Source of the DNA: Pyropia yezoensis
Lineage: Eukaryota > Rhodophyta > Bangiophyceae > Bangiales > Bangiaceae
Assembly (NCBI GenBank): GCA_009829735.1
Contig: CM020618.1
Coordinates: 41,345,030 to 41,409,029 of the forward strand
DNA length: 64,000 nucleotides
Direction: 5' to 3'
Numbering within the stretch: position 1 is the first letter of the stretch; every line of letters starts with the position of its first letter. The notes below the pieces were generated by a model. That model saw only the letters and a program-made list of their open reading frames with translations. It ran no database searches and was not told where the DNA came from. Shown here one piece after another: positions 1,099 to 40,489 of this stretch. The translations under genes were made by a program, and so were the position numbers.

Positions 1099-4000
1099 AT
1101 GGCCGCCCGCGTCGGCAAGTACCTGCTTTTTGAGACGCTCGGGGAGGGCGCGTTTGGCAAGTACGTTTTTTCGAGGGTGCCCATGCCGGTGTGCCAGTGG
1201 GTGGGTTGTGTCGTCGAGGGAGACGGTCTTGCTCGGGCAGCAGTCGCCATGTGGGTCGACGTGCATTGTGGCCCTTGTCCCGTCGCTTGCGGTGCGGGCT
1301 GCCTGACCGATGCCTGTTATTGTTTTGTGTGGGGGGTGGTGCGGGCGGCGGTTGGCTGGCGGGCGTGGGCGGGCGTGGGGCGGTCGGGGTGGTGAGGGAG
1401 GCGGGAGGGCGCGGCGAGTGGCGCCAGTATGGTCCCCCACCTGTGGGTGGTGGATGGATTGGTGGACGCCCCCTCGTGAGGGAAACCCCCACGACCGTCG
1501 GGTGGGCGCGTCGTGGCCGATTAGCGCCGGGGGATGCATTGTGGCCGCGCGCTCGTGGCGGGTGATCCGAGCTCTGGGGCGACGGCGGGGGGGGGGGTCG
1601 TGCCCCGTCGCTGGGGGGTACTCCGCTACCAGTGTGGCACCCCATCCTAGTCGGGGAGGGTTCTCCCCATGGCTGGCCACGGCTGGGGCGGTGGCACGGT
1701 GGCCTTCTGCTGGGGTGGTGGACACGGGGCAACGGCCCGTCGTCCTTGCACTGCGGCTGCGGCATCGGAGCCGCCGTACTGTGGCGAGGATGGCGATGGC
1801 CAACGCTCGCTGCTTCGGCCATCGTGTGGCTTGCGCGCCTGGCGCATGTGCGAGGCGCAATGCTCAGCGGCGACCGTCTTTGCTGGTCTCGGCCTGCATT
1901 TTTTTCTAGTTGGCTCGTTGGATCTAACACGGTTGTGCGCTGTTGTCCTCGGTTGCATCGCCCTGTGCGCGCGTTCTGTGGTTGTTCTGATTGCAAAAAC
2001 GCGTTTGGTGGTGGCGTGCAGAGTGAAGCTGGGTGTTCATGAAGACACTGGCGAGCAGGTGGCCGTCAAGGTGATGGACAAGTCGGATATTAAGGCACAG
2101 GAGATGACCATGAACGTGCGGCGGGAGATTGCCATCATGAAGGCGCTCAAGCACAAGAACATTGTCAACCTGCGGCACGTGCTCACGTCAGCCACCAAGC
2201 TGTACGTCGTCATGGACTTGGTGACGGGTGGGGAGCTGTTCACCAAGATTCTGAACGAAGGGAAGCTTCCAGAGGCGGTCGCACGCCGATTTTTCCAGCA
2301 GCTCATTGACGGCGTCGACTATTGCCATCGCCGGGGTGTTTGCCACCGTGATCTCAAGGTAAGTGTCGCCCTTCTCACTAGTCTTGAATGTGTGTCTGCA
2401 TGCGTCGGCTTTTTCACGCCCCACGGCCACCTCATGTGCGCTGTACTCACGTTGATGTGATTGATCTGTACGTGTTGTTCTTCCCACCTGGTATAACTGC
2501 TGTTTTGATTGATGCAGCCTGAGAACCTGCTCATTGATGACACCAATGGCGAGCTCAAGATCACCGACTTCGGGCTGAGCGCCATGAAGGGTGCCTCGAC
2601 GACCGAGGAACTTCTTCATACCCAGTGCGGTAGCCCCAACTACTGCGCACCCGAGATCATCTCGCGCGCCAAGCAAGGCTACAGCGGCCCCCTGGTCGAC
2701 GCCTGGTCGTGTGGCATCATTCTGTTTGCGCTCCTGGCTGGCTACCTGCCCTTCTACGATGAGAATACCAAGGCGCTGTACCGCATGATCCAACGCAGCG
2801 ACGTGGTGTTTCCGCGGTCCTTCCCGCGCGGTGCACGGATGCTTGTCGAGCGCCTTCTGCACAAGGACCCTGAACGGCGGCTGAAGCTGGCGGACGTGAA
2901 GCGCGACCCGTGGTTTGTCATTGACTATGAAGGAGATAACGCGCGGCCGGCAGAGGGCGCTGAGTCCCCCGCTGCAGCTGGGACGGGCCCCAGCCGTGGG
3001 CGCAGCAGCCGACGGAAACGCCCTAAGCGGAGACCCGAAGAGCAACCGCCATCGAGTTCGGCCGACGTCATGCCCATGACCGCGGGCGGGTCTTCGGGGG
3101 GATCCGTCAACGCACCGCCGCCGCAGCCGCGTCCTGCGACGGACGCATTGCAGTCGGGCGCGGCAGAAGCAGAGGCGTTCACGGCGTCCAGCCGCGCAGA
3201 AGCGGAAGCGGCAGCGGCGGCAGCGGCGGCGGCTGCTGCCACAGCAGCGGCTGCGGCAGGTGCTGCTGCGTCTGTTGCTGCTGCTGCTGCGGCGGCCGCT
3301 GCTGCCATGGAACCATCAGTCCCTGATATCGAGCCTCCCCCGCCTGCGGCCGCTCCTGTCGTCGCCGATCCGTCTTCGACACTTGCTGCGGAAGCTTCTG
3401 TGCCTGGTGGCCAAGCCGTGGGTTCTGCTGATCCGACTGTGGCAGCTGCGACTTTGAAGGCTGAACCTCCGACTGTCAGTGCGTCGCCGTCGCGAGACGA
3501 GCCAGCTGTGTCTGACGCTCCGGTTGTCCAATCGACGCCCGCGTACTTGGCCACTGCATCAGAGGCCGCACCGGTTGTCTTTGCTGGTGTTCACGAGGCG
3601 GGCCCTGCAGATGAAGCCGATACTGCGCCTATGCCCGTGGCGGCTGCCGCAGAGGGTGCTGCGCAAAGCGAGACGGTCATGTCCGACAACGGTCGCAAGG
3701 AGGCGGACGCACCAACGGCGGCCGTGGAGACCCAGGGTCAGCCGTGGCAGCCAAGGTCCACAGCGCCACAAGTGGTTGTCATCCCCAATTCGAGCACCGC
3801 TGCACGAGAACTGTCTCCTGTTACCCCGGCCGACGCCAGAAACAGCCTGCTGCTGTCTTTCGCGTCGTCCAAGGACAATTCGCGATCCGCACGCGCGCTT
3901 GCGGATGGTGTGGACGTGGATGAAGAGCAGTCTGCGGCTCCTTCGGGCGTCCAGACCGACGGTCGTGCCGCATCATCGAGCCCCCCTGGACAGGCACTTC

Positions 4001-7000
4001 CGGACAGGTATCCTCAGCCCAACTTCTCGACGTCTTTGTCGACCAAGACTGTGGAACCACCACTGGTCCCGAAGGCTAGCGATGATGCGAACGCCCTCGA
4101 GCTGCGCTCCGTCTTTGCTGCTGTGGTAGGCGGCCGGCAGGACACAGTCCTCCGCAGAGCTAGCGATGCGAGTGCGAGTGAGGTGGCCGGGCCTCGGGCA
4201 GACCAGACTTCGCTGCCGTATTGGACGCAGAAGCAGCTCACGCCTGTACATCGGACGTCCTCCCCTGTGCCGCCCGTGGTCGCTTCTAGGGAGCCGGACA
4301 GGGTGGAGGAGCGGGACGTGGACGTGGGCTTCCCGCGACGCCGCTCAGCTGCCGACGTCGGCTCTGCAGTCGACGCGGGTGCCATATTTGGTGTGCAACT
4401 GAGTCGTCGTTCTTCTGAGCCCGGCGAGTCTCCATCGCTGCCCGCAGACTCCTCGGCCTCCCGCGGGTTTGCTGAGCAGGTCGCGGCGGAAAGGAGCTCG
4501 TCCCTTGCTGCTCTTCCGTCGACTGTGTCGGTAGGGGCGACCGACGACACCCGTATGGAGCCTGCTGCGGAGGAGCCGGAGTCTGCCCCGGTAGCGGAAC
4601 CTGAGGCGGTGGCGGTCCCGCCTGTGTCGGTTCCATCGGTGTCGGTCCCATCAGTGGCTTCCGCGCCAGTCACGGTTGTTCCGACGTCACCGGCCCTGCC
4701 ATCGAGGATAGAGCAGGCTCGTCGCTTGTTCGAATCATCGGCCAGCGTGGTGCGTGCACCATCGGAAGACCACACCATCCGGCAGCCAGTCTCCCCCCTC
4801 ATCTACGCTCCCGCTGTACTACCAGCTCTTAGTGCCCGCTGGCCTCCTCTCTCGTCTGCGGACGCGGTCGATACATCTGCGCCGGCGCCTACGAGTCGTT
4901 CTGGAACTGGTGCGCGTGGCCTGGAGGATGGGGTCGACCGTACTGTTGCCGACACGTTGCACGAGCGGGCCGTCCCAGACAATGCCGAAGATGATGTGGA
5001 CGTGCCGGCTAGACGAGATTCTGCTGTTGCTGGTGCGGATGCGGCAGCAGATGAGTCAGGCGTATTTGATGTTGCGGAGCGTGTAGGTGCTGCAAATTCT
5101 GCGGACGACGCTCAGCCAGCCGTGGTGGGCGGACTTGCTCTCGGGGTGGACTCTAGTGTGGGCACATCCTCACCCAACGAGCCTGGTGGTCCCATGGATC
5201 TCTCGTCTGTTGGACGCGACGAACCGCTCGCCAACGGCTCCGGACCCAGGGGGGTTCCACTCGGCGCGGCGGCCGGTTATTCTTTGGCTGCAGCGGAGGC
5301 AGACCTGGCACGCCACTCGTCCAAGCCGATTGCGCAGGCAACGCTGCCGCTTTACCCTATGAATGATTTTAAGGATGCTGAGGCGGCGATGGAAGAGGAA
5401 GACTTGGCCACCGCGGCGGCGGGACTGGGGCTCCCGCCGGTGGACGCGGAGGCTGTACCTGCGAACAACTCACGGGCTCCCGAAGAGTCGGCGACGGGCG
5501 AACCAGACCTTGCCGCGTACCAGGTTGCTGACGGTGTCGTCCCTGTCGCATCGTCCTCACGGTCGCCACTAGGCGGGGGCGTGGATGCAGAGCCCCGTGC
5601 GGAGGACCCTGCGTCAGGCTCTGCGGATTCGTTGCGCGACGAGGTGCCCGACGCACACGACAGTGACGCCGAGAACTCGCAAGACCAAGACGACGAATCC
5701 CTTTCGCTTCCCGCCATGCGCATCAAGCAGGCGGTACAACGCTACCAGAAGCTGTTTCAGCTGGAGAAGGGGGTGGGGATCCTGGCCAGCCCGAGCTTTA
5801 AGTCCCGCGCAGCCAATGCGGGCAACCAGAAGCAGTTCGGCCGGCTTGCTGCGTTTGAGGGCGTGCTCCCGGTTGAGCCACAAGACGAAGCGGCAGAGGC
5901 TGCATCTCTTGCTGTATCGACTGAGACGTTGCAGCTATATCGGGACGCCAAGTCTGTCACGGGCATGTGGGGCATTCTCCTTGTGCAGGAGGGGATTGGA
6001 CGAAAGCGGGCCGCGAGCGGACCAATCATCATGACACCAGAGGAGAAGCCGTCCATTACTGTCGAGGAGGTAGAGGCGTTTGAGAGGCTCTTGGACTTCT
6101 GGCAGCGGCAGCGTGACCGGGACTACACGTTGGACGACATCACTCCGCTCCCGGATGATGAGGCGGCCTCTTTACGCGCTCTGCTGGCCACCCTCAGACC
6201 ACCACCTGCGGACGACGTGGGGGAGGCGGTGGAGATTGTCGACGCGGACGAAGCGGAAGAGCTCCTTTCGCATCAGCAGGCTGTCGAAGATCAGACTGGC
6301 GGCGCCGACGCGGTCCCGGACGGACCTGGTGTGGTTCGGACGGAGGCTGGCACCGCTGCTGGTGGAGACTCGTTTCGGTCACGCGCTTCCCATGAGGATG
6401 GGGATTATCAACGGAGTGACAGTGACAGTCGCAGTGTCGGCGACGGGAAGGCGGCTGTGTTGGGCTTGGGCATGAAGCATTCCACTACCAGTGATGAGAT
6501 CACCCCGGACGCTCTTGACTCTGTAGGCAAGAGGTCTGGTTCTGCGCCACAACTCCAACCGGATGAAGACACGTCTCCCAAGATGGCAACGGACATCAAC
6601 GGGGTGGGTGCGCTGCCTTCGATGGCCCTGTCGACTTCTGCGGATACGGGCAAGCGGCCGGCTAAGCACTCCCGGCACGGCAGTCAGGGAAGCGGAATGT
6701 TTTCCAGCCGTAGCGGCAGCAACCAAGGCAGCGGCAAGGCACGTGCTGCTCTCCCGTCGGACAAGTCAGCCGAGGCCCTGGACACGCTCGCGTTGGGCAA
6801 GTCCGGATCCGCACCTTCTGGTGACGCCGCCTCGTCAGTCAGCGCTGCGGAGGTCGGCCTCAAGAGCGGCATGAGCTATGGCAGTGTCGGCAGCAGTGGT
6901 GGCGGTGCACAGCAGGCTGCTGGATCCAGCTCTGCGGCTGCCCCTGTGGCGCGGTCTCGCTGGGGCTTCCGGGGCATGTTTGGGCTGCTCACTGGCGCAG

Positions 7001-7371
7001 CTGCAGTGACGCCTCCTCCCGTGCCGGTTGCGCCCATGACCGAGTTCAAGTCGGCACTGCCGCCGGAGAAGTGCGCGCTCATCCTAGGCCGTGTGCTGAC
7101 GTCCATGCAGTGTAACGTGATGATGAAGAAGGGGGAATCTAAGGTTCGGGCCGAGTACCCCATGAAGCGCGGGGAAAAAATGCTGGTGAGCGTATCGGCG
7201 CACCGGGACGTGCATGCCGGGGAGACCGTTATTTCGTTCAAGCGGTCTCGGCGAGACCGGTCCCGCGGGGCGGGGACTACCGAGTTTAGCGACTTTGTGG
7301 CCCAAGTGCACACCAACTTCCGCCGTGCAACGGGCGGCGGCGGTGGCGGGGGGGGAAGCGGGCGGAGATGA
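1099..7371 (+). CDS. CIPK/SnRK-like (CAMKL) serine/threonine kinase with huge disordered linker and KA1-like tail, 3 exons
   Basis: Exons 1099-1160, 2022-2358 and 2518-7371 splice to a 1,750-residue protein. Intron 1 (861 nt) starts GTACGT and ends GCAG; intron 2 (159 nt) starts GTAAGT and ends GCAG. The first splice rebuilds the glycine loop GEGAFGKVKLG, which supports the model. Kinase landmarks are Lys37 (VAVKV), HRDLK 129-133 with Asp131, DFG 150-152 and APE 177-179. The sequence VTGGELF, then [24 protein letters not shown], is typical of plant CIPK/SnRK3 and other CAMKL kinases. Residues about 285-1630 are Ala/Ser/Pro/Glu-rich and probably disordered. Residues about 1640-1735 resemble the KA1/PPI fold at the end of CIPK and AMPK-family kinases. 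I find no clear NAF motif, so CBL calcium-sensor binding is not shown. It probably acts in cytosolic stress or energy signalling. Confidence 0.9.
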
Positions 7372-24960: not shown

Positions 24961-26510
24961 ATGGCCACCTTTATCTCTGCCCCCTCTGGGCTGCTCGCGC
25001 GCCCGCCCGCGCGCCTGGGCCGACGGGCTCGCCTCGGCAGCGGGGCGGCGCCCTGCCGGGCGCCTGCCGTCGCGACCGCCCGGCCGCCGCCTGCGGCGAC
25101 ACCCGGTGGGGTGTCCGCCAGCGGGGCTGCCCCCACGACGGTAGCCACCCTCGCTGGCGCCGCCACCGGCAATGAGTCGGGGGTGGCCCGCGCCGCGGAG
25201 CAGCGGCGGGGCGGCCTCCCCCGCCGGGCGTTTCTGGCCGCCGCCGCTGCCGCCGCCGCGTCGGCCGTGGCGGCGGGGGGGGCGGCCCCTCGCTCCGCCG
25301 CCGCGGCCGCGGCGGCAGCGGCAGCGACCGCCACCCCCACCTTTTTTGACCTGACCGCCAGCCGTGGGGGCGCCCCCGCGCCGCTCCGAGACCTCTTTGA
25401 CGGCAAGGTCACCCTCGTTGTCAATGTGGCGAGCTACTGCGCGCTGACCCCACAGTACGAGGGCCTTGTGGCGCTCCACCGCAAGTACGCGGCGGGGGGG
25501 GAGGGCAAGCGGCCGTTTGATATTGCGGCCTTTCCGTGCAACCAGGTGCGTCTGTGGGTTGGGGGGTGACCTTCGGAGGGGTTGTCAGACGAGGGGGGGT
25601 GGGGTCTGAGGTGGGGGGGGGGGCGTGGGAAGGAGGGTTGCTAGCCGGTCAATTGTGGGGGGGGGCACACTGGTTGCTCTGCTGTCCCTTGTTGCTCTTG
25701 CGGACTTTTGTTGGTCGGGCTGGTTGCGTTCTCTTTCTTTGTCGCTCGCGCCGCCGTTTTTCCGGCTTGCCTGTCGCCTTCAACTGCTGACGAAGTGCTG
25801 GTCTGCGGCCGTTGCCCATGGATTGGTCTGGATGCTTGTTGCTCCTGCCTGCGGCGGTCGCGTGCTGGTCTTGGGATGCTCTTCTTTTGCGTGCGCGCGC
25901 CCCAGTTTGCTGGCCAAGAGCCTGGTACGTGTGGCGCCCTCACCCACATTCTGGTGCGGTCCTCCTCCTTTCTCCGCGCTCGTGCCCGCGCCGCCCTTGT
26001 GCGCTGTTTGTGCATTCATGGACAAGTTCTTTTCTTTTGTGCCATTGCCAACTGTCCACTCACATGTCCTGGGTGGACCCTCCGTTCTCCCCTCATCCCC
26101 GACAACGTGGCTTTGTTCCCCACTGCGCTGCCATTCCCCCGCGATGGACGGCGCTCTTTGCTCACCTGTGCGTGCATTCGTGCCTTAACTGGTTGTTGAC
26201 TGCAGGTACGTACGACGAGGTATGCGCGTTTGCGCGCGAAAAGTTCGGCGCCGCGTTCACCCTCTTTGACCCCCTCTCGGTGAATGGCCCTTCGACCCAC
26301 CCCGTCTACCAGTGGCTCAAGGCCAACAACCCCGACGACGGGAAGCGGATAGAGTGGAATTTTGCCAAGTTTCTTGTCGACGGCGACGGCGCGGTCGTGC
26401 GGCGGTACAAGCCGGGCGTGCTCCCCGAGATGATTGAGGGTGACATTGCCGCGCTGGTGGCGGAGCGGCCGCTGCCCAAGCGGGTCAAGCCCCAGCTGGG
26501 TGCGGTGTGA
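24961..26510 (+). CDS. Glutathione peroxidase (thioredoxin-type, Cys form), plastid-targeted, 3 exons with a 19-nt microexon
   Basis: Exons 24961-25545, 25906-25924 and 26206-26510 give 302 residues. Introns are 360 nt (GTGCGT...CCCAG) and 281 nt (GTACGT...TGCAG). The microexon reads FAGQEP plus the first base of Gly202 and restores the family motif FGGQEPGT, which is absent without it. The catalytic tetrad is complete: Cys160 (NVASYCALT), Gln199 in the microexon, and Trp252-Asn253 (WNFAKFLV). The enzyme reduces hydrogen peroxide and lipid peroxides; with Cys instead of Sec, thioredoxin is the likely reductant. The first 110 residues look like a bipartite leader: an Arg/Ala/Ser-rich transit part, then R88-R89, a long alanine-rich hydrophobic stretch and AAP-type cleavage. 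This is the form of a twin-arginine signal, so a thylakoid-lumen location is inferred. Confidence 0.9.
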
Positions 26511-38123: not shown

Positions 38124-39098
38124 TCAGCCGAGGAAGGACACTCCCGTGACCTCCTCGCTCTTGGCCCACAGCGCCGCCGAGGCGGGAGCGTCCGTGGCCA
38201 TGGGGGCCTTCTTCTCCCGCGCGGGGGGCCCCCGGAGGCCCAGAAAGGAGGGCCCCCAGTAGTCGTCTGCGCGCACGTCCGCCTCGGTGGCGGCATAGAC
38301 GAGCGGGCAGGCGCCCGCCTCGGCCGAGTGGCTGAGGACAGACTGGAAGACGGCCATAAGGGCGGTGAAGGGGGCGGCAACGGTGGCCTTGCCGACGAGG
38401 CCGGTGCGCGCCCAGCCGGGCTGGGCGGTCACCGCCAGCACGGGGGGAGTGTCGCCACCGCCACCGCCGCCGCCGCCGTCGCCGTGCGCCGCCAGCCGGC
38501 GGGCCAGCTCGTGGGTGAAGAGCAGGTTGCACACCTTACTCCGCGCGTAGGCCGCCCACGGGGTGTAGGACCGCTCCAGCGTCCAGTCGTCCAGGGCCAG
38601 GTCGCTGCACGACCGGTGCGCGTGGGAGGCAACGTTGACGATGCGGGCGCCGGGGGTGGCAGCGAGGAGCGGCAGCAGGAGGCCCGTCAATGCAAACGGG
38701 CCCAGGTGGTTGGTGGCCATCTGCGCCTCCTGCCCGTCCTTGGTCACCGCCCGCGGCAGCATCATGACGCCCGCGTTGTTGAGCAGCACGTCCAGCGACG
38801 GATGGCTGGCCGCAAAGGCCGCCGCAAACGCCCGGACCGACGCGAGGTCCGCCATGTCCGCCACCCCCACCGCCACGGTGCCGGCGGCAGGGCCCGCCGC
38901 GGTCAGCACCTGCCGGATGGCGGTGGCGGCCGCCTCCCCACGCTCGGGGTTGCGCACCACGATGGTCACGTTGGCGCCTTTGAGGGCCAGGTGGCGGGCC
39001 GCCTCGTAGCCGACGCCCCCGTTGCCGCCCGTCACGATAATGGTCTTGCCCGACTGGGGCTCAAGGTCGGCCATCGTCCACCTCTTGGATGGGGCCAT
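38124..39098 (-). CDS. Short-chain dehydrogenase/reductase, RDH/WWOX/POR-like
   Basis: A single exon of 324 residues from ATG 39098. The frame is open upstream but only Pro-rich there; ATG 39074 is an alternative start. Classical SDR landmarks are present: the cofactor loop T23-GGNGGVG-30, D81, N107-NAG-110, N130, S158 and Y184-x3-K188, so the catalytic tetrad Asn-Ser-Tyr-Lys is complete. Arg49 after the second strand (IVVRN) favours NADP(H). The overall pattern (VTGGNGGVGYEAARHLALKG, NHLGPFALTGLLLPLL, VNVASHAHR) matches the retinol dehydrogenase/WW-oxidoreductase/protochlorophyllide reductase-like group, and the substrate is unknown. A poly-Gly insert (about residues 206-213) interrupts the helix before the QPGWARTGL segment. 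No targeting signal is clear. Its promoter should lie in 39,100-39,500, where the minus strand has CTATTTAG at about 39,404. Confidence 0.9.
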   Translation of the reverse strand: MAPSKRWTMADLEPQSGKTIIVTGGNGGVGYEAARHLALKGANVTIVVRNPERGEAAATAIRQVLTAAGPAAGTVAVGVADMADLASVRAFAAAFAASHPSLDVLLNNAGVMMLPRAVTKDGQEAQMATNHLGPFALTGLLLPLLAATPGARIVNVASHAHRSCSDLALDDWTLERSYTPWAAYARSKVCNLLFTHELARRLAAHGDGGGGGGGGDTPPVLAVTAQPGWARTGLVGKATVAAPFTALMAVFQSVLSHSAEAGACPLVYAATEADVRADDYWGPSFLGLRGPPAREKKAPMATDAPASAALWAKSEEVTGVSFLG

Positions 39099-40489
39099 GG
39101 CTGCTTGTGGTCCGGGGTGGGGAGGGGGCGGGGGGCAGGGGGGTGGCAATGGGGGCAGCAAAGAGCCGGCCGAGGGAGAATGGACGGCGAGGAGAGGGTG
39201 GCGTGGGTAAGCCCAGACCGCAGTGGGGGAGGGGGGTCGACAGCAGACACAGTCGAGGGGGCTGGGAGGCGACGGGGATGGAAGTGACTTGGTGTAGCGC
39301 CGTCAAGGGCAACACGAGCAGCCGAGGACCTAGGTTGGAGAGAGCAGGCGGATGGGACAGCGGGGACCGGCCGCCGTCCGTCCTCCCGCCGCAGCCGGCG
39401 CGTCTAAATAGCAGCGGCGGTACGGCGGCCGGGCACGAGCAGGGGTGGGCCCCGGTCGAGCGCGGCCTCCATCGCGCCCGTGTGGCCTGTGTGCCCCACC
39501 CCCATCGTGTGCCGGCTGTGGCGCTGGCGCTCCTCCCAAGGCAAAAAAAGGCCTTGGGAGGGACCGAGGCGGCGCTCGAGCGGAACGAACGCGGGCACGC
39601 CGCTGCAGGGCGTGCCGCGGGCGTCCATGCGGCCCCTCATTGGTCGTTTCAAGCCGAACAGCACCCCCTTCCATCAGCTCCAATGGGAGTGCGCCAGCCG
39701 CCTGCCGACGCGCCGCCAGCAAGATCCATGGCGCACGCGACGCTCTTCGCTCTCCGTCTTGGATGACGGGTCGTCACATGCCGGACGGGGCGGCGGGGCG
39801 GGAGGGGAACCACGCCTCGACTCTCCCCCCGACGAGAAGCGCCGCGGCTGTCCCACGGGGGCGACCGACGCCGCAGCCGGCGCCGACGGCGTGCGTCTTG
39901 GTCCCTGGACAAGAACACCCACGGCCAGGGGGGGTAAGTAAGTACCTACTCGGGGCGTGCGTATCGCCGGACCTCTTGCCTGAGCGTGTTGGACGGGCAC
40001 CCGTGTTGGTCTTACTCACAGACGGAGCCCGGTGGTGCGTCCCGACGCACCATGTCCAGACGCCACCGTCGGAGCGGGGCTGCCACAAACGCGCCGGGCT
40101 ACCGCCGCGTCGGCAGTGCCTCCCGTCTGTGGCCACCAACAACCGCGGGGCGGCAGCGGTCAAGGTTCCCCTCCCGGCTGCTGCCGCCCTTCTGGTTTCC
40201 TCCCGACAGACTCGCGGTGTGCACGCATAGATATGCATGTATCCATCCGTGCACGCTACGGAAAATGGTGGCAAGAAACGCGCTCAGTAAAAAAAAAACA
40301 CACCAACAGGTGGGGACCACCCCGTTCGTCGTAAGCCCTTCAGGAGGGGCCCTCCCCCGCCGGGTCTCTTCCACCCCACCGGGCCTCCTCCCCCCCCCCC
40401 CCCCCCCAAAACCCCCGCCCCAACACCCCCCCCGCCCCCCCCAATCCCCCCCCCCCATCCCCCCCCCCCCCGCGGGCAACGTGCGACCG
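39099..40489. other. Intergenic region upstream of the SDR gene and downstream of the SNF5 gene
   Basis: The 1.4 kb holds no supportable gene. The minus strand has a TATA-like CTATTTAG at about 39,404-39,411. Poly-C blocks at about 40,391-40,407 and 40,428-40,470 border the 3' end of the SNF5-like gene. Confidence 0.5.

Follow-up and report, generated by a model that had tools for sequence, protein, structure and literature searches.

Among land plants, 45 clusters of exons of 1-15 nt have been described across nine species, with C. reinhardtii left out of the clustering (PMC8831610; PMC12409088), and MEPDB sets its definition of a microexon at exons of up to 51 nt (PMC12409088). Validated genes of Pyropia yezoensis are reported to carry 0.7 introns per gene, the introns averaging 300 bp and the exons 755 bp (PMC3594237), and the splicing machinery of the Bangiophyceae is described as a reduced set of 91 spliceosomal machinery genes (PMC5880011). 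The words ‘glutathione’ and ‘peroxidase’ are absent from the main text of both land-plant microexon papers (PMC8831610; PMC12409088). The open-licence titles and abstract openings that we searched name no glutathione peroxidase (GPX) microexon and no red-algal microexon report on this gene, and a passage of a transcriptome paper on P. haitanensis mentions GPX by name and goes no further (PMC8278576). Here we describe what is very probably a nuclear, probably plastid-targeted GPX gene of P. yezoensis whose coding sequence is divided among three exons, the second being a constitutive microexon of 19 nt.

The window, by which we mean the whole 64,000-nt stretch of DNA analysed (C1:41345030-41409029), belongs to a genome of 107.5 Mb in 11 contigs. 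An HSP70 search yielded 21 matches in this genome. Of these, 16 fall within one of the 15 P. yezoensis HSP70 genes tabulated with coordinates in PMC8464122, 2 overlap such a gene and extend past its end, and 3 are elsewhere; every one of the 15 tabulated genes receives a match. PyyHSP70-1 (Chr_1 6,257,822-6,260,514), for instance, corresponds to C1:6258211-6260004, PyyHSP70-10 (Chr_2 6,095,554-6,097,839) to C2:6095575-6097464, and PyyHSP70-11 (Chr_3 2,333,040-2,330,689) to C3:2330848-2332653. This agreement identifies the genome as that of the nori alga P. yezoensis (Neopyropia). Within the window, TTTGCTGGCCAAGAGCCTG (19 nt) has a single copy on the + strand, at 25906-25924, with CGCGCCCCAG before it and GTACGTGTGG after it, and a search of the other strand found none. 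This is where a first-pass annotation had placed a 19-nt block between CCCAG and GTACGT, and the splice-site context of the block reads CCCCAG on the acceptor side and GTACGT at the donor. Exon 1 ends in phase 0 at 25545 (CAACCAG/GTGCGT) and exon 3 starts at 26206 (CTGCAG/GTACGTACG), the same edges as those proposed before. The join of 24961-25545, 25906-25924 and 26206-26510 is 909 nt long and encodes 302 aa with no internal stop, which agrees with the earlier statement that the phases of all three exons fit; in this join the microexon codes for Phe-Ala-Gly-Gln-Glu-Pro and base 1 of Gly202, again as had been read from the letters. The exon lies within the MEPDB limit for an internal exon (≤51 nt). 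Both flanking introns are GT-AG and carry the genome’s own splice signals, with the hexamer GTGCGT itself outside the 17 donors that we collected. Their lengths of 360 and 281 nt are about ordinary for the alga (published mean 300 nt, PMC3594237). The first-pass annotation had remarked that exons this short are hard to splice; here the introns on either side are of usual size and the microexon donor is the hexamer found most often in other genes of the genome. The features of the gene are collected in Table 1.

Table 1. Features of the GPX gene, in window positions; a slash marks a splice border.
Feature	Position	Strand	Remarks
Exon 1, coding part	24961..25545	+	ATG, putative N-terminal targeting region, ends ...FPCNQ in phase 0
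Twin-arginine-like motif and Ala-rich stretch RRAFLAAAAAAAASAVAAGGAAPRSA	25222..25299	+	RRAFL is residues 88-92, Ala-rich onward
Peroxidatic Cys160, in NVASYC	codon 25438-25440	+	within exon 1
Intron 1, 360 nt, GTGCGT...CCCCAG	25546..25905	+	donor second best of the interval between exons 1 and 3
Microexon, 19 nt	25906..25924	+	Gln199 codon CAA at 25915-25917; 3' edge placed by homology
Intron 2, 281 nt, GTACGT...CTGCAG	25925..26205	+	donor best of the interval between exons 1 and 3
Exon 3 to stop codon	26206..26510	+	rest of Gly202, Thr203; Trp252-Asn253 at 26355-26360
Donor-like GTACGTAC, CAG/GTACGTAC at 26203-26213	26206..26213	+	directly behind the intron 2 acceptor

The Pfam GSHPx profile (PF00255) scores 92.4 bits on the 302-aa join (cut-off 27), with a match from residue 144, and this bears out the earlier assignment of the gene to the glutathione peroxidases. 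The score drops to 69.2 bits after in-frame removal of the six microexon residues, and to 46.0 bits for the true skip product. The NCBIfam bacterial GPX equivalogs remain below their cut-offs (NF007900, 120.1 of 270 bits; TIGR02540, 105.6 of 207.3 bits). For comparison we took the best 80 of at least 591 matches in genome contigs and the best 80 of 161 in viral contigs, which together give 133 distinct relatives. Each of the 160 loci holds a matching frame that stays open for 90 aa or more, so there is no intron-bearing orthologue among these prokaryotic and viral contigs. The relatives were fetched with two patterns per scan, one containing FPCN[QAW][FY][GA], to which the viral scan adds [QKE] two residues on; the Phe and Ala/Gly columns are thus partly selected, because the fetch pattern includes them. 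With that limit, Phe196 is present in 133 of 133 relatives, and Pro201 and Gly202 in 129 and 131. The Gln199 column is identical in all 133: it was unconstrained in the genome-contig scan, where Gln occurs in 80 of 80, and the viral scan has it in 53 of 53 distinct sequences. Trp and Asn are found in 124 of the 133, the remaining nine being gapped there.

We take the GPX catalytic tetrad to be Cys (or Sec), Gln, Trp and Asn, here Cys160, Gln199, Trp252 and Asn253, so that the Gln of the tetrad would be Gln199. In the alignment with the relatives, all four of these columns are filled. Over the segments compared, the window protein is 44% identical to yeast HYR1 (PDB 3cmi) and 46% identical to poplar GPX5 (PDB 2p5q). 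It shares the family motifs NVASxC, FPCNQF-x2-QEPG and WNFxKF, but differs from the GPX family in having Ala rather than Gly after the peroxidatic Cys, and in a long Ala-rich N-terminus. Where yeast HYR1 has the Cys of ...AQFC..., the window protein has Ala, and Cys208 lies three residues earlier. The HYR1 residue is presumably the resolving Cys of the thioredoxin-dependent Cys type.

The N-terminus of the window protein begins MATFIS, and those of the two further GPX relatives described below begin MAFLS (L008) and MAAFVP (L003); all three resemble what we take to be plastid transit peptides of red algae. RRAFL and the Ala-rich stretch before the GPX domain suggest a possible export to the thylakoid lumen. 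On the window protein the TAT profile gives 6.9 bits (E 9.1), where its cut-off is 16.7.

A GSHPx search of the genome yielded at least two further genes. L003 (C1:37463302-37463706, minus strand) is intron-free across the block, where its sequence is FPCNWYGQKEPGD. In the peroxidatic Cys column it carries Asp (NVASEDDE), and it keeps Trp-Asn and the QKEPG loop; it is possibly a non-catalytic GPX relative. L008 (C1:19956367-19957563) resembles the window gene in being a GPX with Cys, Gln, Trp and Asn and three coding exons, and both of its donors are GTACGT. It reads VPCNAFG-M-QEPGTNEQ. In contrast to the window gene, its first intron interrupts the Met codon of FG-M-QEPG in phase 2, which is 8 nt further along than the site of intron 1; it has no intron at EP/G, and its second intron lies behind WNFACR. 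The introns of the window gene and L008 are thus not at shared positions, and among the three GPX genes the microexon occurs in the window gene only. Taken across these two paralogues, three introns fall within 19 nt of aligned coding sequence.

The splice signals of the genome were read from introns in HSP70, proteasome and chaperonin genes, located by taking GT-AG joins that keep the frame close to the ends of the matches and scoring them with profiles built from paralogues that lack introns. Fourteen gap pairs were examined (9 + 5), and nine introns were placed by HMM score; HSP70-14 was left out, no intron being evident there. The donors of the nine score-placed introns are GTACGT (five, two of them from the near-duplicate genes PSM-e and PSM-f), GTACGC, GTACGA, GTGTGT and GTATGG (one each). 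Eight more introns were placed by eye (HSP70-4, two in PSM-b, PSM-c, CCT-e, the kinase intron of the window and the two of L008), with GTACGT at seven donors and GTAAGT at one. Placement in HSP70-4, PSM-b, PSM-c and CCT-e followed known homologues and, in part, the GTACGT hexamer, which makes that part of the count partly circular, and in HSP70-4 two other joins outscored the chosen one (798.7 and 797.4 against 796.6). Read with that limit, GTACGT accounts for 12 of the 17 donors in other genes, and it seems to be the main donor of the genome, with a C at +4 that mismatches canonical U1.

On the + strand of the window, 14 of 3,406 GTs start GTACGT. Ranked among these 3,406 by a matrix built from the nine score-placed donors, the microexon donor comes 4th and the intron 1 donor 35th; with the 17-intron matrix the ranks are 7th and 29th. 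Inside the 660-nt interval between exons 1 and 3, the microexon donor is first and the intron 1 donor second with either matrix. The intron 1 donor, GTGCGT, occurs at none of the 17 collected donors. Branch-site candidates were sought as CTRAY: none lies near the intron 1 acceptor, the only match being ~115 nt upstream, and intron 2 contains no match. By eye, TTAAC at 26185-26189 is a possible branch site for intron 2.

Three copies of U6 are found in the genome, and the ACAGAGA box is intact in all three. An Rfam U1 search of the genome at E 0.001 gave no match, and the controls were silent too. At a loose limit there is one weak match (E 0.18; 20.7 bits against a gathering threshold of 69.5), a limit at which 9 of 14 prokaryotic control genomes match as well, so that this score carries little weight by itself. 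The locus (L217:1348-1640, ~C2:14761921-14762213) is ~290 nt long, compared with the 166 positions of the Rfam model, and has TATATAAA ~40 nt upstream, ACUUACCUGG at its 5' end, CCAUUGCACG, an Sm-like CAAUUUAUG and a 3' hairpin with UUCG. Its fold includes a very long inner stem-loop (z -2.2, with 4 of 200 shuffles folding equally well). These features make the locus a candidate for a long U1 that carries the usual ACUUACCUG. U1 has been reported in other red algae (PMC5880011). A lost or altered U1 was considered as an explanation of the GTACGT donors and set aside: there is no sign of a compensating change, because the candidate carries the usual ACUUACCUG.

Several other genes were noted. 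The protein kinase gene of the window (1651-2457 and 2509-7368) has its intron inside HRDLK/PEN, with the donor GTAAGT at 2359, and continues into a 1,620-aa open frame; the window also holds a short-chain dehydrogenase frame at 38127-39302 on the minus strand (PF00106, 86.9 bits). Among the proteasome genes, L198 and L199 (C3:14749563-14750108, minus, and C3:14752485-14753030, plus) form an inverted pair ~2.4 kb apart and are identical across 546 matched bases. A second proteasome pair on C1 (L200/L215, L201/L214) has near-equal scores and the same exon-intron plan. At L179 (C1:30852163-30854106, minus), an HSP70 frame contains one internal TGA, where a published table has two adjacent short genes, PyyHSP70-6 and -7 (PMC8464122); a single gene may have been divided here by a stop or an assembly error.

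How far the microexon stands out from chance can be judged from the interval itself. Against a seven-column profile of the 133 distinct relatives, drawn from the 160 loci, FAGQEPG scores 25.2 bits, and the 660-nt interval contains exactly one AG-19-GT block that keeps the frame and is free of stops, which is the microexon. None of 5,000 dinucleotide shuffles of the interval reached that score with length fixed at 19 nt (best 10.3), and none of 1,500 did so when lengths of 19-100 nt were allowed (best 11.6). Both strands of the window together hold 293 AG-19-GT blocks, 267 of them open; the microexon is top and the runner-up scores 0.9. In the face of these figures it is scarcely credible that the motif sits in an intron by chance, with the real gene joining exon 1 directly to exon 3, and such a join also shifts the frame. 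The companion idea of a pseudogene, which we rate no higher, has against it the presence of Cys, Gln, Trp and Asn and the open state of exons 1 and 3. A genuine exon of more than 19 nt has in its favour that forms of 25, 76 and 100 nt off this acceptor, which are among the best four of 20, likewise stay in frame without a stop. The 25-nt form, with its donor GT at 25931, would read FAGQEPGTC-TYDE, adding two residues where none of the 133 relatives has an insertion, and needs GTGGCG in place of GTACGT; we regard a longer exon as highly improbable. The 3' edge of the microexon is thus placed by homology: exactly 19 nt is favoured over the 25-, 76- and 100-nt forms because CNQFAGQEPGTYDEV is free of insertions and gaps in all 133 relatives. 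Altogether, the sequence gives strong support to a microexon of 19 nt.

A different question is whether a real microexon is always included. As 19 leaves a remainder of 1 on division by 3, skipping shifts the frame and brings a stop after 220 aa. Retention of intron 1 adds seven residues (VRLWVGG) before a stop, and retention of intron 2 leads to a stop near the 3' end of that intron. The first-pass annotation had held that the protein lacks the catalytic Gln without this exon; Gln199 does lie in the microexon, but the effect was understated, in that skipping costs the reading frame as well. Because skipping and retention each yield early stops, either could serve as a switch that turns the peroxidase off, for example on desiccation or with life stage, and the strong donor-like site at the start of exon 3 could disturb the choice of splice site. 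The microexon donor is, however, among the strongest of the window, which favours constitutive use, and we consider a regulated microexon unlikely.

Under the preferred reading of a constitutive 19-nt microexon, the spliceosome would remove two ordinary GT-AG introns, the microexon donor being the hexamer that is commonest in other genes of the genome. Since the introns are short, intron definition would probably be enough, taking the introns out one after the other without recognition across the exon, and would avoid assembly across 19 nt. Joining would restore CNQ-FAGQEP-G-TYDE, so that the catalytic Gln comes after the peroxidatic Cys encoded by exon 1 and before the Trp-Asn encoded by exon 3, and the enzyme would presumably use all four residues, Cys160, Gln199, Trp252 and Asn253. 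Inclusion should be needed for a working enzyme, because skipping or retention truncates the protein. The analysis itself shows the sequence, its frames and homology, the splice-site ranks and the paralogues; splicing in vivo, constitutive inclusion, the order of splicing, the enzyme activity and the cell location are inferred.

The start of exon 3 has a further peculiarity. Directly behind the acceptor of intron 2 stands GTACGTAC, which either matrix puts 1st among the 3,406 + strand GTs of the window; no second such case occurs among the 18 introns compared. GGTACGT is common to both ends of intron 2, at the border between the microexon and the intron and at the start of exon 3, and this border repeat of 7 bases is the longest of the 18 introns compared. 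None of 16 introns of other genes (PSM-f omitted as a near-duplicate of PSM-e) is followed by an exon that starts with GTACGT, and their longest border match is 5 bases. The need to encode Gly-Thr accounts for part of this. Target-site duplication as a general pattern was rejected: the border matches of the 16 introns sum to 34, against a mean of 35.5 for swapped pairs, and 4,659 of 5,000 border swaps are at least as good. Exons starting with GT number 5 of 16, compared with 5.3% of positions (binomial 0.001, in a small sample that is partly eye-placed), and this excess is possibly a proto-splice-site preference. Introns 1 and 2 as copies of a repeated element of the introner type were also rejected, each matching only itself genome-wide in a search that skips simple repeats and very common words and that weak or old copies could escape.

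In recursive (ratchet, or zero-length exon) splice sites and in stwintrons, an acceptor is followed immediately by a consensus donor. Exon 3 is similar in having a consensus donor right behind its acceptor (CAG/GTACGTAC), but differs in coding for conserved residues from base 1; for this reason, the removal of any part of exon 3 is disfavoured. That the GTACGTAC arrangement is functional, with U1 at the start of exon 3 helping to define the acceptor, or with the site acting as a ratchet point, strikes us as a slim prospect. If it were so, the exon 3 pseudo-donor would allow reliable inclusion of a 19-nt exon in an algal group with 91 spliceosomal machinery genes (PMC5880011). In a historical variant, which belongs to our boldest reading, intron 2 might have arisen from a GGTACGT target duplication, and the microexon might have been cut from a larger exon.

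Should the constitutive microexon hold true in RNA, an intron-poor red alga with a reduced set of splicing genes would still splice a 19-nt exon, and an active-site residue would depend on that exon. The first-pass annotation expected automatic models of this gene to be likely wrong. Nori is a marine crop, and its GPX gene models deserve a check, as one in which exon 3 follows directly on exon 1 would lose the reading frame.

So, how does this exon compare with those already described? Like the coding microexons of land plants, as these are presented in PMC8831610 and in the MEPDB paper (PMC12409088), it is a very short internal exon that carries conserved residues. In contrast to the land-plant clusters, it is 19 nt long and so lies outside the 1-15-nt class, and its host is a red alga. 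Such coding microexons are familiar from land plants, and the GPX exon of the window appears to be a well-supported further case.
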